NCBI RefSeq assembly: GCF_004217215.1
Contig: NZ_SHKP01000008.1
Coordinates: 248,001 to 312,000 of the forward strand
Direction of reading: 5' to 3'
Source: Rivibacter subsaxonicus
Lineage (GTDB): Bacteria > Pseudomonadota > Gammaproteobacteria > Burkholderiales > Burkholderiaceae_C
DNA: 64,000 nt
This document shows, piece after piece, positions 1 to 22,226 of this stretch; position 1 is the stretch's first letter, and each line of letters starts with the position of its first letter. The notes under the pieces were generated by a model, which was not told the DNA's origin, made no database searches, and worked only from the letters and a program-made list of their open reading frames with translations. The position numbers and the translations under genes are program-made.

Positions 1-642
1 GTACGCGCCCAGCAGGTGCTGCTGGCCGGCAACGTCTACCTGCCGGAGTTCGGCCCTGCCCTGGCGCCGGGCCTGAGCGCCCGCATCATGCCGGTCGGCA
101 CCTACATCGTCTGCAGCGAGCCGCTCGGCCGCGAGCGTTGCGATGCGCTGATCCCGTCGCGCTCGGCGGTCTGCGATACCAACTTCGTGCTCGACTACTT
201 CAGGCCGACGCGCGACCACCGCCTGCTCTACGGCGGCCGCGTCAGCTACTCGTCGGTGACGCCGATGAACCTCGCCGACAGCATGCGCCGGCGCATGGTC
301 GGCTCCTTCCCGCAGCTCGAGGACGTGAAGATCGAGCATGCCTGGGGCGGCTTCGTCGACATCTCGATGAACCGCGCGCCCGATTTCGGGCGCCTGCCCG
401 CGGCCGGTGCATCGAAGGGATCGGCCGCCTCCAGCGTCTACTACCTGCAGGGCTTCTCGGGCCACGGGCTGGCGCTGACCGGCCTGGCCGGCAAGCTGGT
501 GGCCGAGGCGATGGCCGGCGACGCGAGTCGCTTCGACACCTTCGCGCGCCTGCGCCATCGCCCCTTTCCCGGCGGCCGGTTGTTGCGCACCCCGGCGCTG
601 GTGCTCGGCATGGCGTACTACCGGCTCAAGGACGCGCTGTGA
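1..642 (+). CDS. puuB: FAD-dependent gamma-glutamylputrescine oxidoreductase, C-terminal part
   Basis: This is the C-terminal ~213 residues of a DadA/PuuB-type FAD amine oxidase; the reading frame is open to the left edge, so the gene starts outside the window. The family oxidises gamma-glutamylputrescine to the gamma-glutamyl aldehyde with release of ammonia and H2O2. Visible support is the C-terminal FAD-contact segment YYLQGFSGHGLALTGLAGKL, typical of this family, and the preceding beta-strand segment ending GGFVDISMNRAPDFGRL. The genes that follow (puuD, puuA, polyamine importer, puuC) make the gamma-glutamyl substrate more likely than glycine or D-alanine, which are alternative substrates within the DAO fold. 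The stop lies 112 bp before puuD. Confidence 0.85.
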   Translation, partial: VRAQQVLLAGNVYLPEFGPALAPGLSARIMPVGTYIVCSEPLGRERCDALIPSRSAVCDTNFVLDYFRPTRDHRLLYGGRVSYSSVTPMNLADSMRRRMVGSFPQLEDVKIEHAWGGFVDISMNRAPDFGRLPAAGASKGSAASSVYYLQGFSGHGLALTGLAGKLVAEAMAGDASRFDTFARLRHRPFPGGRLLRTPALVLGMAYYRLKDAL

Positions 643-17417: not shown

Positions 17418-18482
17418 TCAAGCAGGCGGACTCGATGCCCGGGCGATGGCCGGTGGCGACTCTGAGGGGTTCGGTAGCGAGCGGCGGCGTAGGACGGTGG
17501 GCGAGCAACCGAACCAGCGCCGACAACTGCGGGTGAGCGCCGCCTGCTCCGAATAGCCCAGCAGCAAGGCCAGTTGGGTCAGGCTGAAGGCGCCCGATTG
17601 CGCCACCAGTTCAAGGAAGCGGTCGCGCCGGACCTCGTCCAGGAGATCCTTGAATTGATGGCCTTCGGCCAGCAGGCGGCGTTGCAGCGTCTTTGGGTGA
17701 ATTGCCAGGTCGTCGGCAATGACCGGCAGGGTCGCGGACTGGCTGTCCAGGAATCGGCGGATCAGCAGCCGGACCCGATCGGAGAACAGTTGCTGCGGCG
17801 AGCCAAAGCATTCCTCGATGTAGGTCTGTGCCATCTGCTGCAGCAGCGGGTTGTGTTCGGGCAGCGGGATGGCAAGGTCGCTGGCCGCGATCCGGATACC
17901 GGCGACCGGCGTGTCGAACTGGCATTCGCAGCCCAGCACCTCGGCGTAGCGCCGCAGCGAACCGAGGCGGCTGTGTGGCACTAACGCCAGCAACGGCCGG
18001 ACCCGGCCCTGCGTCACCAAGCGCAGCACCTGGACGATGAACCCGAGTGACTGCTCGACGATCTGCGCGCGGGCCGTCAATTGCCGCACCGCGATCTCGA
18101 ATGTCAGGTCGACCAGATGTCGGTCCGATGCGACGGGCGCGACCGCGAAGTGAATCTCGGGGCTCAGGACGAAAAGATGGCGCGAGCCAGCGAGCAGCGC
18201 CTGCTCGAGCGTCGGCGCGTGGCGCATCAGCGCGGTCAGCGGGCCGAGGACGCCTGACTGCTGCGCCTGGATGAGCCTGAGGCCCAGGTCCGGGCAATTC
18301 GCGGTGCTCGCCGTGTGCTCCAGGACCCGGATGCACGCAATGAACGAGATGAAACTGTCCGGGTTCTTCAGCGCCTCCAGCGACAGGCCGACGCGCTTCA
18401 ACTCATGCGCCGGGTCGGCGCCGATCGATCGCGCCAACTTCTCATAGCCATGCAGAACCGTGGTGCGAACGAGCGATGTCAT
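17418..18482 (-). CDS. AraC-family transcriptional regulator (OruR-like)
   Basis: 354 residues. The N-terminal ~190 residues match the arabinose-binding-type domain of OruR/ArgR-like AraC regulators (GYEKLARSIGADPAHELKRV start, ALLAGSRHLFVLSPEI). The C-terminal AraC double helix-turn-helix lies at about 240-335 with LPVIADDLAIHPKTLQRRLL and FSLTQLALLLGYSEQAALTR. The last 17 residues are a loose Ser/Pro/Ala tail. It is divergent from the beta-helix/cytochrome pair with 220 bp between start codons. Two 17-bp direct repeats there have the spacing of AraC half sites, so it is the likely regulator of that pair and probably of itself. The effector is unknown. Confidence 0.88.
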   Translation of the reverse strand: MTSLVRTTVLHGYEKLARSIGADPAHELKRVGLSLEALKNPDSFISFIACIRVLEHTASTANCPDLGLRLIQAQQSGVLGPLTALMRHAPTLEQALLAGSRHLFVLSPEIHFAVAPVASDRHLVDLTFEIAVRQLTARAQIVEQSLGFIVQVLRLVTQGRVRPLLALVPHSRLGSLRRYAEVLGCECQFDTPVAGIRIAASDLAIPLPEHNPLLQQMAQTYIEECFGSPQQLFSDRVRLLIRRFLDSQSATLPVIADDLAIHPKTLQRRLLAEGHQFKDLLDEVRRDRFLELVAQSGAFSLTQLALLLGYSEQAALTRSCRRWFGCSPTVLRRRSLPNPSESPPAIARASSPPA

Positions 18483-18517
18483 CCGGTGTCAGGCGCGCTG
18501 AGTTCTTACCCTGATGT

Positions 18518-18545
18518 CTTTTACCCTTATGTCCTTAAGAGTCAA
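18518..18545 (-). promoter_or_regulatory. Candidate sigma70 promoter of the AraC-family gene
   Basis: On the minus strand TTGACT (18545-18540) and TAAAAG (18523-18518) are separated by 16 bp, and the -10 lies about 35 bp from the regulator start codon. The -35 falls inside the first 17-bp direct repeat, as expected for autorepression. Seen directly; promoter activity is inferred. Confidence 0.45.
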
Positions 18546-18566
18546 GCAAATGTCCTTTGAAGTCAA
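18529..18566 (+). promoter_or_regulatory. Two 17-bp direct repeats: candidate AraC-type operator
   Basis: ATGTCCTTAAGAGTCAA (18529-18545) and ATGTCCTTTGAAGTCAA (18550-18566) match at 14 of 17 positions and are separated by gcaa, a 21-bp period of two helix turns. AraC itself uses 17-bp half sites at 21-bp spacing at araI1-I2. A partial third copy, atgtctttt, starts at 18514. The repeats lie 47 bp from the regulator start and 137 bp from the beta-helix gene start. Confidence 0.6.
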
Positions 18567-18702
18567 GGGCTCAAGTGACGAGTGTCGCACCATTGCCCTT
18601 GTTCAGATGCCGCACTGGCGCCGGCGAGCCATGTTCCCGGCGGACGGTCTGTGCAAGCTGGCCATTCGACATCCACTCATCGACGTTCTCCGGAGATCAA
18701 GC

Positions 18703-20121
18703 ATGCGTTTCGCTCGGACCCTGCCCTCGGCCTTGCTGGTGGCCATGACTCTGGTGGCCTGTGGCGGCAGTGACAGCGACACGCCGGCAGCGCCCGCAGC
18801 GCCGGTTGCCCCCGTTGTTCAGGGAACGGTCGTGACCGCGGCCCAGATGAACGACATCGACCTGAACGCGATCTTCCAGGCAGCCAAGGAAGGCGACACC
18901 ATCACCTTGCCGGCCGGCAAGTACAGCTTCAAGGGTCCTCTGCAGATCACCAACAAGAAGCGCATCACGATCCTGGGTGCCGGCAACGGCACGGACCCGA
19001 CGTCCAACACCATCCTGTCCTTCGCCAAGGCGTTGACGCAGAACGGCATGGACACCTCGGGCCTGGAGACGGCGGTGTTCCGCAAGTTCGCCATCGAGGA
19101 CGCATCGGGCAACGGCATCTTCGTCAACCAGTCGCGTGACATCGTCATGGACACCCTGCGCGCCGAGTGGACGATCAACCCCTTCGGCACGTCCAGGATG
19201 GCCTATGGCCTGTATCCGGTCAGTAGCGACAACATCAAGATCGTCAACAGCAAGGTGGTCGGCACGCGCGATGCCGGCGTCTATGTCGGCCAGTCGACCA
19301 ACATCCTGGTGGCCGGCAACGAAGTGGCCAACAACGTGGCCGGCGTGGAGATCGAGAACTCGCACAACGCGATCGTCGAGAACAACCTGGTGCACGACAA
19401 CACCGGTGGCATCCTGATCTTTGCGTTGAAGGCGCCTCCCCGGTTCAAGGACACCAAGAACATCCTGGTGCGCAACAACACCATCGTCGACAACAACACG
19501 CCGCCGTTCGCCAATGCAACGGGGCTGGTGCTGACCATTCCGCCGGGCACCGGCGTGATGGTGCTGGCATCGCAGAACGTCGAGATCACCGGCAACATCA
19601 TCAGCCGCCACCAGACCACGGGCGTCCTGCTGATCACGGCCTACGCGGCCGGCGAGCAGGACACCAGCGGCACATTGGACAGCCAGGGCAAGCCGTACGA
19701 CAACTTCGGCCGCGGCGCCTACGTCCACCACAACACGATCTCGGACTTCGGCTACAACCCAGGCGGTGCGTTTGCCCAGCCATCGAGCGCAGGCGGGCTG
19801 CAGGACTTCGCCGACCCCTTCATGGCAGGCTACAAGAGCTTCCCGGCAGTCATGTGGGATGGCATCGTCGATCCGGCAACCGGCACCGGCGTCGATCTGT
19901 CCACCGGCTACCCGATCGGTGGCGACTACACCGGCAACCAGAAGATCTGCTCAAAGAGCAACGGCGTGACACCGCCTGCCGCCAGTGTCGGCGTGAGCTA
20001 CGAGAACCTCGCCCTGAACCTGTTCGGCATGCTGACCGGCACGGCAAGCTTCGACTTCCCGAACCCGACCCGCATGGATTGCACGATCACGCTGCCCCCC
20101 GTGACCGGCTATCCGTCCTGA
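18703..20121 (+). CDS. Parallel beta-helix repeat lipoprotein, paired with a diheme cytochrome
   Basis: 472 residues from the ATG at 18703 (cggag ribosome site); the open frame to 18514 would cross the operator. Lipoprotein signal peptide with lipobox LVAC and Cys20, followed by a Ser/Asp/Pro/Ala linker. Right-handed beta-helix turns of about 22 residues are clear at residues 177-237 (NIKIVNSKVVG, NILVAGNEVANN, NAIVENNLVHDNTGGI) and recur later (NILVRNNTIVDN, NVEITGNIISRH). I recognise the family that occurs as a two-gene pair with the SO2930-type diheme cytochrome (TIGR03805/TIGR03806 pair), which is the next gene. Its function is unknown. It is probably anchored in the outer or inner membrane, facing the periplasm or the outside. 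No catalytic motif of a polysaccharide lyase could be identified. Confidence 0.85.
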   Translation: MRFARTLPSALLVAMTLVACGGSDSDTPAAPAAPVAPVVQGTVVTAAQMNDIDLNAIFQAAKEGDTITLPAGKYSFKGPLQITNKKRITILGAGNGTDPTSNTILSFAKALTQNGMDTSGLETAVFRKFAIEDASGNGIFVNQSRDIVMDTLRAEWTINPFGTSRMAYGLYPVSSDNIKIVNSKVVGTRDAGVYVGQSTNILVAGNEVANNVAGVEIENSHNAIVENNLVHDNTGGILIFALKAPPRFKDTKNILVRNNTIVDNNTPPFANATGLVLTIPPGTGVMVLASQNVEITGNIISRHQTTGVLLITAYAAGEQDTSGTLDSQGKPYDNFGRGAYVHHNTISDFGYNPGGAFAQPSSAGGLQDFADPFMAGYKSFPAVMWDGIVDPATGTGVDLSTGYPIGGDYTGNQKICSKSNGVTPPAASVGVSYENLALNLFGMLTGTASFDFPNPTRMDCTITLPPVTGYPS

Positions 20122-20190: not shown

Positions 20191-21429
20191 ATGCCAGCCA
20201 AGTCGCTGATTCGAAGCCTGCAGTGGGGCCTCAGCTCTGCCCTGAGTGCCCTGATCCTGGCCGCCTGCGGCGGCGGTGACAGCGACACGCCAGGCGCGCC
20301 CCCCGCACCGCCCGCGGCGACCCTGCCGGTCGTGTTCCGCGCGGCCGAGGCGCCGCCCAAACTGTCGCAATGGAATGCAGTGCGCAGCGACGGCAGCAAG
20401 CTGTCGCACCACACCGCCGTAGTCCCCTATGACCTGTCCTCCGCCCTGTTCAGTGACTACGCGCTGAAGATGCGCGGGCTGTACGTGCCGGCCGGCAAGA
20501 AGATCAACTACACGACCACGGGCACGCTCGACTTCCCGGTAGGCACCGCGATCTACAAGACCTTCTACTTTCCCAGGGCCCAGGGGACCGATCCAGCCAA
20601 CTACCTGCCGGTCGGCAAGGCGAGCATCAGTCCGCAGGGCAGCACCATCGACCTGACCACGCATCGCCTGATCGAGACCCGCATCCTGGTGCTGGAGGCC
20701 AGCGGCCAATGGACCGGAACAACCTACGTCTGGGACGCTGACCAGAAGGACGCGTCGCTGAACACCAGCGGCAAGTACGTGGAGATGGAGTTGGTCGCGC
20801 CGGTCGGCGCCCCTGAGAAGTTCACCTATGTGGTGCCCAACGCGCAGACCTGTCAGAAGTGCCATGCCACCGAATCGGGTGGTTCGGGTCCGACGCTGCC
20901 GATCGGACCGAAGGTGCGCAATCTGAACAAGGACTATGAATACGCCAAGGGCGTCGTTCAGAACCAGCTCGTCCACCTGGACGAACTGCAACTGCTGGCC
21001 AGCTTCCCGGGCCTGTCGGGTGCACCGGTCAACGTCGACTGGGCCGATACCGCCAAGTCGCTGGGCGACCGTGCCAAGGCCTATCTGGATGTGAACTGCG
21101 CGCATTGCCACAACGGCAAGGGCAACGCATCCCAGTCGGGACTTAGGCTGACCCATGAGGACATCGGCTCCTCGGCCACGAACCTCTGGGGCGTCTGCAA
21201 GAAGCCGCTGGCCTATGCCGGAACCGGCCTGCCGGGCTACACCTATGACATCAACCCGGGCAGCCCCGAATCGTCCATCCTGCTGTACCGCATGGCCCAT
21301 ACAGAGGCCGGCCAAACCATGCCGGTGGTCGGGCGCCAGACGGTTCACAAGGAAGCCACGTCGATGGTGAGCGACTGGATCCGGCAACTCAGCTCGGCTC
21401 CGTCCGCGCTGACCGCCTGCTCCGAGTAA
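20191..21429 (+). CDS. SO2930-family diheme c-type cytochrome lipoprotein
   Basis: 412 residues. Lipobox LAAC with Cys26, then GGGDSDTPG, nearly the same linker as in the upstream beta-helix protein. Two c-heme motifs, CQKCH (221-225) and CAHCH (303-307), with a probable distal ligand in the C-terminal TMPVVGR segment. The N-terminal ~190 residues (LSQWNAVR, PYDLSSALFSDYALKMRGLY, FPVGTAIYKTFYF) are the conserved non-heme domain of this family. Known members form a two-gene pair with the beta-helix protein, and the function is undescribed. The gene follows its partner by 69 bp in the same direction. A role in periplasmic electron transfer to or from a substrate held by the beta-helix protein is inference. 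Confidence 0.87.
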   Translation: MPAKSLIRSLQWGLSSALSALILAACGGGDSDTPGAPPAPPAATLPVVFRAAEAPPKLSQWNAVRSDGSKLSHHTAVVPYDLSSALFSDYALKMRGLYVPAGKKINYTTTGTLDFPVGTAIYKTFYFPRAQGTDPANYLPVGKASISPQGSTIDLTTHRLIETRILVLEASGQWTGTTYVWDADQKDASLNTSGKYVEMELVAPVGAPEKFTYVVPNAQTCQKCHATESGGSGPTLPIGPKVRNLNKDYEYAKGVVQNQLVHLDELQLLASFPGLSGAPVNVDWADTAKSLGDRAKAYLDVNCAHCHNGKGNASQSGLRLTHEDIGSSATNLWGVCKKPLAYAGTGLPGYTYDINPGSPESSILLYRMAHTEAGQTMPVVGRQTVHKEATSMVSDWIRQLSSAPSALTACSE

Positions 21430-21694: not shown

Positions 21695-22195
21695 CTACTC
21701 GCGCCCGGCCGTCGCCATCGCGCTGTCGGCGCGCCAGACCCGGTAACGCAGCTCGACCCCGTCCGGCACGAACACCACCACCGGGATCTTCGGGTTGTAG
21801 CGCAGCAGCCCGGCCTCGGCCCTGCCGTGCGGGGTGCGCAGGTTCGCGCGCACGAACTCCTCGCGCTTGGGCATGTCCGGCGGGCAGGCCATCATCGTCG
21901 AGGCTCCACCACCGACCGGGCCGACCACGAAGTAGTCGAAGCCCCAGCCCTGCGCCGTCTTGGTAGTGACGGTGCCGCCCATCATGTGGCGGTTGCAGTC
22001 GACCTGCAGGGTCTTGCCGACGATCAGCTCGAGCCGGTGCTCGTCGGGCTTGTCGACCTCGGGCAGGCGGATGACGAAGCGCTGCTGTCCGGCCTTCGCG
22101 GCCGGGAATGGCTTCAGGTCGTCGGTCGCGGCACCGGCAACACCCTGGACGGCCAGCCCGAGCAACATGCCCAGGCCACAGATCACCTTCTTCAT
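21695..22195 (-). CDS. eco: Ecotin, periplasmic serine protease inhibitor
   Basis: 166 residues from the ATG at 22195, with a signal peptide cut near GVAGA-ATDD (about residue 22). Ecotin is a dimeric periplasmic inhibitor of trypsin-fold proteases. The family landmarks are all visible: LELIVGKTLQVDCNRHMMGG, WGFDYFVVGPV, the reactive loop STMMAC with P1 Met101 (as in E. coli ecotin), GLLRYNPKIPVVVFVPDGVE and the C-terminal YRVWRA dimer arm. The disulphide pair is Cys67/Cys104. It lies downstream of an alpha/beta hydrolase with 31 bp between them. Ecotin protects against host or predator proteases; here the attacker is unknown. Confidence 0.95.
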   Translation of the reverse strand: MKKVICGLGMLLGLAVQGVAGAATDDLKPFPAAKAGQQRFVIRLPEVDKPDEHRLELIVGKTLQVDCNRHMMGGTVTTKTAQGWGFDYFVVGPVGGGASTMMACPPDMPKREEFVRANLRTPHGRAEAGLLRYNPKIPVVVFVPDGVELRYRVWRADSAMATAGRE

Positions 22196-22226
22196 CGACG
22201 CTGCTCCGTTGTCGTGAGCCTCGACT

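Follow-up and report, generated by a model that had tools for sequence, protein, structure and literature searches.

A conserved pair of direct repeats at a 21-bp period as the predicted class II operator of an AraC-type regulator divergent from a beta-helix/diheme cytochrome operon

What is the role of two near-identical repeats that lie between an AraC-type regulator gene and a divergent beta-helix gene in Rivibacter subsaxonicus? The pair sits in the 220-bp gap between these genes, within the stretch of 64,000 nucleotides analysed here (the window, to which all coordinates refer unless stated). The regulator (354 aa, 17418-18482, minus strand) carries an N-terminal PF12625 domain (Arabinose_bd; 110.9 bits against a gathering score of 27.6) and PF12833 (HTH_18; 55.7 bits against a cut-off of 33.6), which places an AraC-family gene directly beside the putative operator. 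On the other side lie a beta-helix lipoprotein-like gene (18703-20121, plus strand; TIGR03805, 265.6 bits) and an SO2930-family diheme c-type cytochrome gene (20191-21429, plus strand; TIGR03806, 342.6 bits), the presumed first and second targets. The list of open reading frames opens the beta-helix frame at 18514; we place its start at 18703, because by eye this ATG is preceded by a ribosome-binding-site-like stretch and followed by a lipoprotein-type signal-peptide-like start. Within their signal-peptide regions (window 18742-18804 and G000:C5:268248-268310), the beta-helix gene and the cytochrome gene have 63 bp in common at 79% DNA identity, suggesting that the export signal has been exchanged or duplicated. 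An ecotin-type serine protease inhibitor gene (21695-22198, minus strand) is found just past the cytochrome gene. In the portion consulted of one study (PMC4837345), SO_2930 is mentioned once, in a table of Shewanella cytochromes.

Copy 1 (ATGTCCTTAAGAGTCAA, 18529-18545, plus strand), with the core TGTC-N7-GTCAA at 18530-18545, would be the promoter-distal half-site, and copy 2 (ATGTCCTTTGAAGTCAA, 18550-18566, plus strand), with the same core at 18551-18566, the promoter-proximal one. The tandem 17-bp repeats described in an earlier note on this DNA are borne out by the sequence: the copies are identical at 14 of 17 positions, are separated by a 4-bp spacer (GCAA) and recur with a period of 21 bp, and both end, as that note had it, in AGTCAA, whose complement TTGACT is read at 18545-18540 on the minus strand. 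The two copies are real, but the start at 18514 given there adds a third, partial ATGTC and no third full site. We rejected a third site at 18514, where ATGTC alone matches within what looks like a 15-bp local duplication. This near-perfect tandem duplication, TTACCCTGATGTCTT / TTACCCTTATGTCCT (18506-18520 / 18521-18535; 13 of 15 positions by eye), begins to the left of copy 1, runs into it (18506-18535 in all) and is the source of the third ATGTC.

When the 220-bp intergenic region was dinucleotide-shuffled 5000 times, a pair matching at 14 of 17 positions arose in one shuffle with a spacing of 21 and in 10 with any spacing of 17-40. Across the whole 64-kb window there are 33 such pairs at spacings 17-40, three of them at 21, compared with 1-11 at spacings 17-40 in each of 20 shuffled windows. 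Because of this excess, repetition alone is weak evidence, and conservation elsewhere decides.

Relatives of the regulator were collected from the same family, in which 125 of 150 genomes gave a match at E <= 0.001 and the best six non-self matches were 42-50% identical, and from named contigs, which supplied eight loci: seven in metagenome bins (Burkholderiales, other betaproteobacteria and Pseudomonadota) and the eighth, at 29% identity, in a Caballeronia isolate. Another regulator, 63% identical, adjoins the beta-helix gene in G165 (L046). With duplicates removed (L065 = L004/L044; L066 = L005; L070 = L006; L043 = L009/L085; L046 = L083), the close set consists of the window and 11 loci at 42-63% identity to its protein. 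The earlier note had named homologous loci without the repeats as the observation that would count against its reading; the exact pair is kept in nine of these 12 closest loci (window, L046, L064, L065, L066, L067, L068, L069 and L043), where the unit TGTC-N7-G[TA][CT]AA (once with AGTC) occurs twice at exactly 21 bp and both units read away from the regulator gene. The other three (L006/L070, L007 and L008; L006-L008 at 42-45% identity) hold one strong copy and a degenerate distal one; taken together as a 21-bp pair, the two outscore every one of 100 shuffles in L007 and in L008, and 98 of them in L006.

The first gene rightward in the nine loci is a beta-helix gene in four, a DedA-type gene (VTT domain) in four and an acyl-CoA synthetase gene in one, where a carboxyltransferase gene comes next. 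Because this gene differs among the pair-bearing loci, it is the regulator that the site accompanies, whichever operon is the target. In L066-L069, from Rhodoferax and related bins, regulator and operator precede the DedA-type gene (followed in L066 by PLP-dependent decarboxylase-like and TauE-like genes), and it seems that the target was exchanged while the operator was kept. Approached from the target, TIGR03805 scores above its cut-off in 15 of 399 family genomes; four of these loci (window, G007, G122 and G165) have the regulator next door by tblastn and the same four have the pair, and neither regulator nor pair was found within about 3.9 kb around each of the remaining 11.

The strict pattern TGTC-N7-GTYAA-N5-TGTC-N7-GTCAA was searched in 399 family genomes with its reversal as control. 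It occurs at 10 places in nine genomes, and the reversed pattern in none of the 399. Six of the 10 have a divergent PF12625 regulator on one side and, on the other, a beta-helix gene (G000, G007 and G165) or a BKACE (beta-keto acid cleavage) gene (G107, G339 and G205); the Pfam run covered the regulators of the window, G107, G339 and G205 and the enzymes of G107 and G205, while the regulators of G007 and G165 are tblastn matches and the enzyme of G339 was judged from its sequence. Three others fall inside coding-looking open frames (G133 twice, G273; read by sequence), and one (G003) adjoins an AraC-family gene without a PF12625 hit. At L081, L082 and L084 the operator is likewise flanked by a BKACE gene and by a PF12625 regulator with 29-32% identity to that of the window. 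In the window's own genome, up to three mismatches gave eight matches including the window site, against five for the reversed control, and the window site alone was exact; we claim no wider regulon for this reason. At E <= 1e-60, with at most five candidates per genome scored among the matches listed, the search for orthologues elsewhere in the order found one in a single genome of the 399 drawn, the window's own, a draw that says little because the six genomes with close matches are all missing from it.

The direction of action is indicated by an alignment of 12 exact-pair loci, namely the nine pair-bearing close loci with L081, L082 and L084; it excludes the loci with one strong copy (L006/L070, L007 and L008) as well as L071, a partial match at 29% identity. 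Outside the pattern used for picking the sequences lay 102 of its 120 columns, and two of these 102 are invariant, an A 59 bases and a T 63 bases from the first T. The effective sample is smaller than 12, since L067-L069 are alike and a single 37-base site is common to L081 and L082. The two bases are positions 2 and 6 of CACCAT (18588-18593, plus strand), the candidate -10 element of a rightward promoter. Positions 2 and 6 are the two most conserved bases of the sigma-70 -10 element. The -35 slot, CAAGGG (18564-18569, plus strand), would overlap the end of copy 2 as the -35 of pBAD overlaps araI2; it is a poor -35 consensus, as may be expected of an activator-dependent promoter. Judging by the position of the -10 element, transcription would start at 18600 (+/- 1-2, plus strand), which would leave about 103 nt up to the ATG of the beta-helix gene.

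With the strong copy as the point of reference, the same slot reads TAGCAT in L006, CAGAAT in L007 and CAAAAT in L008, all loci outside the alignment. Among 24 more distant loci (L010-L033), the A and T stand in the exact slot in 11, a count that includes L030, which adjoins L082 and belongs to its site, and L026, which is without a supported pair; several other distant loci show, by eye, a like hexamer shifted by 1-2 bases. A consensus scan of both strands of 18470-18720 found no sigma-70-type promoter, a result that is expected if the promoter is activator-dependent, yet gives no support either.

The half-site mechanism of AraC-type regulators is already known from textbooks. In E. coli, TAGC is found at offsets 0 and 21, CTGACG at 34 and TACTGT at 58-63, with araC and araB divergent; the TAGC motifs belong to the AraC half-sites araI1 and araI2, and CTGACG and TACTGT are the -35 and -10 of pBAD. 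The araI1-I2/pBAD region shares with the window the direct repeats with a period of 21, their orientation, the divergent regulator gene and a -10 at 58-63 from copy 1, whereas the bases differ (TAGC/TCCATA there, TGTC/GTCAA here). At the level of sequence the register of the -10 is the same to the base, and, as in a class II operator, two direct half-sites recur at a 21-bp period with the proximal one over the -35 slot and the candidate -10 at a fixed distance. The shared GCACCAT had been seen before the comparison with pBAD was made, and the agreement in register is a check and not a blind prediction. The AraC half-site geometry put forward in the earlier note is supported: the 4-N7-5 unit, the 21-bp period, the orientation and the distance to the -10 all agree with E. 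coli, and the note's second repeat, placed toward the beta-helix gene, corresponds to copy 2 as the promoter-proximal half-site.

We consider it very probable that the pair is the class II AraC-type operator of the divergent regulator and serves to activate the rightward beta-helix/diheme cytochrome operon. Each TGTC-N7-GTCAA unit would be occupied by a single subunit if the regulator binds as a dimer, or by a single monomer if two bind, and the two helix-turn-helix motifs of the bound protein would read TGTC and GTCAA, which lie about a turn of the helix from each other. The rightward promoter would be weak, with copy 2 overlapping its -35 slot; the regulator together with its inducer would touch RNA polymerase there and switch the operon on, and it is possible that occupation of copy 1 would, as a side effect, lower transcription of the regulator's own gene. 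Binding, dimerisation, activation and the need for an inducer are what we infer here, beside the observed sequence, geometry, conservation with the regulator and -10 register.

Autorepression is not exclusive of activation and could accompany it. That it is the main function, with the regulator on copy 1 covering its own -35 and the beta-helix operon controlled otherwise, we regard as improbable. A possible leftward -35, TTGACT (18540-18545, minus strand), does lie inside copy 1, a possible -10, TAAAAG (18523-18518, minus strand), follows 16 bp downstream, and copy 1 lies 12-80 bases from the regulator start codon in the seven loci measured. However, TTGAC is not conserved, since TTAAC stands in its place at four of the nine close loci with the pair and at two of the three BKACE loci; in L067-L069 copy 1 and the start codon are no more than 12-16 bases apart, a leader too short for a -10 and a start site; and the conserved -10 lies on the opposite side, toward the target. 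As for the earlier note, its candidate araC-gene promoter contains the TTGACT that it named but is weak, the scan of 18470-18720 having found no sigma-70-type promoter on either strand, and its suggestion of autorepression through the -35 in copy 1 is weakened by the lack of conservation and by the short leaders of L067-L069.

That note had also offered tandem -35 elements, in which a duplicated part of the leftward promoter would account for the repeats with no regulator binding. AGTCAA, the complement of TTGACT, indeed ends each repeat, but TGTC, 11 bp away, is conserved at least as well as GTCAA and would be left unexplained, the 21-bp spacing and the orientation are conserved, the -35 bases vary, and the consensus scan was empty. 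We rejected the tandem -35 reading on the conservation of TGTC and the want of a consensus promoter, and hold it to be very unlikely. It is just as hard to believe that the pair is the operator of a different regulator, such as another AraC-family protein, and stands here by chance: the AraC-family neighbour of the G003 match has no PF12625 hit, and more distant PF12625 regulators share the code, making cross-talk conceivable, but the site tracks the adjacent regulator rather than the target operon, and the genome has no exact copy besides the window site. The class II operator of the adjacent regulator remains our preferred reading.

The same code seems to extend to more distant regulators. 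The nine loci provide 18 half-sites, and a weight matrix made from these was applied to the upstream regions of 27 homologues outside the training set. In 19 of the 27, 21 bp was the best spacing (L031 among them with a negative score). The mean best pair score over the 27 was 11.3 at 21 bp against at most 0.6 at every other spacing of 16-40. On the reverse strand, used as a control, 21 bp was best in five of 27, its mean of -3.6 still being the highest among the control spacings; the near-palindromic nature of the unit may account for this. Set against 100 shuffles, the pair outscored every one of them in 19 of the 27 loci, a set not identical to the 19 in which 21 bp is best. Eight of the 27 do not prefer 21 bp; in two of them, L021 and L033, the true upstream region was possibly missed because the match begins at residues 55 and 36, respectively. 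Some distant members (L010, L012 and L013) have TGGC in place of TGTC.

In a draw of PF12625 regulators across the phylum, 30 loci were scored, one of them the window's own (L111). Of the 29 others, four (L095, L104, L112 and L116) scored 8 or more with 21 bp as their best spacing, and most were without a pair. L104, from another family of the same class, reaches 32.7; L104 and L116 begin like the window protein, while L095 and L112 score weakly, and L100 has a start much like the window protein yet no pair. At L098, near a PF12625 regulator, the same half-sites form a strong pair (score 28.4) with a spacing of 22 bp in place of 21. A code general to all PF12625 proteins was rejected, since only four of 29 non-window loci reach this score at 21 bp, and the code seems to belong to a clade of PF12625 and not to the whole domain family. 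It is likely that this clade, many of whose members begin like M-T-x-L-V-R, shares one code, TG[TG]C-N7-G-N-[CT]-A-A or a near variant, present in two copies at a 21-bp period and pointing toward the divergent target, with the A and T of the -10 at 59 and 63 (shifted by 1-2 bp in some), and that the code stayed fixed while the targets were swapped (beta-helix/cytochrome, DedA-type, acyl-CoA synthetase or BKACE genes).

Among known regulators, GliR (PA3027) of Pseudomonas aeruginosa offers a likeness: in the part of its description that was consulted, it is an AraC-type activator divergent from the operon it activates, and full activation takes two motifs, one overlapping the -35 (PMC8151288). 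Its motifs, YYGGCGHTDTYSGMC and GGAYAWCGCCG, differ from that of the window, the term 'direct repeat' is absent from its main text as far as consulted (PMC8151288), and the GliR model scores 76.9 against 570 bits on the window protein, below cut-off. The best NCBIfam model for the window regulator, that of QhpR-type AraC regulators (NF049968), covers residues 51-332 with 162.8 bits; QhpR identity is not called, as this falls short of the 250-bit cut-off. Of the proteins with a solved structure, VirS of Mycobacterium tuberculosis (PDB 8rcx, 8rcw) is nearest in sequence (E 3.2e-57 over residues 3-332), a likeness of protein sequence alone, its organism and its target being others.

In the open-licence literature, consulted mostly at listing level, no description was found of the operator, of the regulator-operator pair or of the clade-wide code, nor anything joining QhpR with AraC or OruR with direct repeat, or dealing with 21-bp direct repeats. 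The TIGR03805/TIGR03806 gene pair thereby gains a candidate regulator, a candidate operator and a predicted start site. A reporter driven from the predicted promoter could offer a route to the inducing compound, and hence to the pathway. Moreover, if the code holds true across the clade, the targets of many orphan AraC-type regulators would become readable from sequence.
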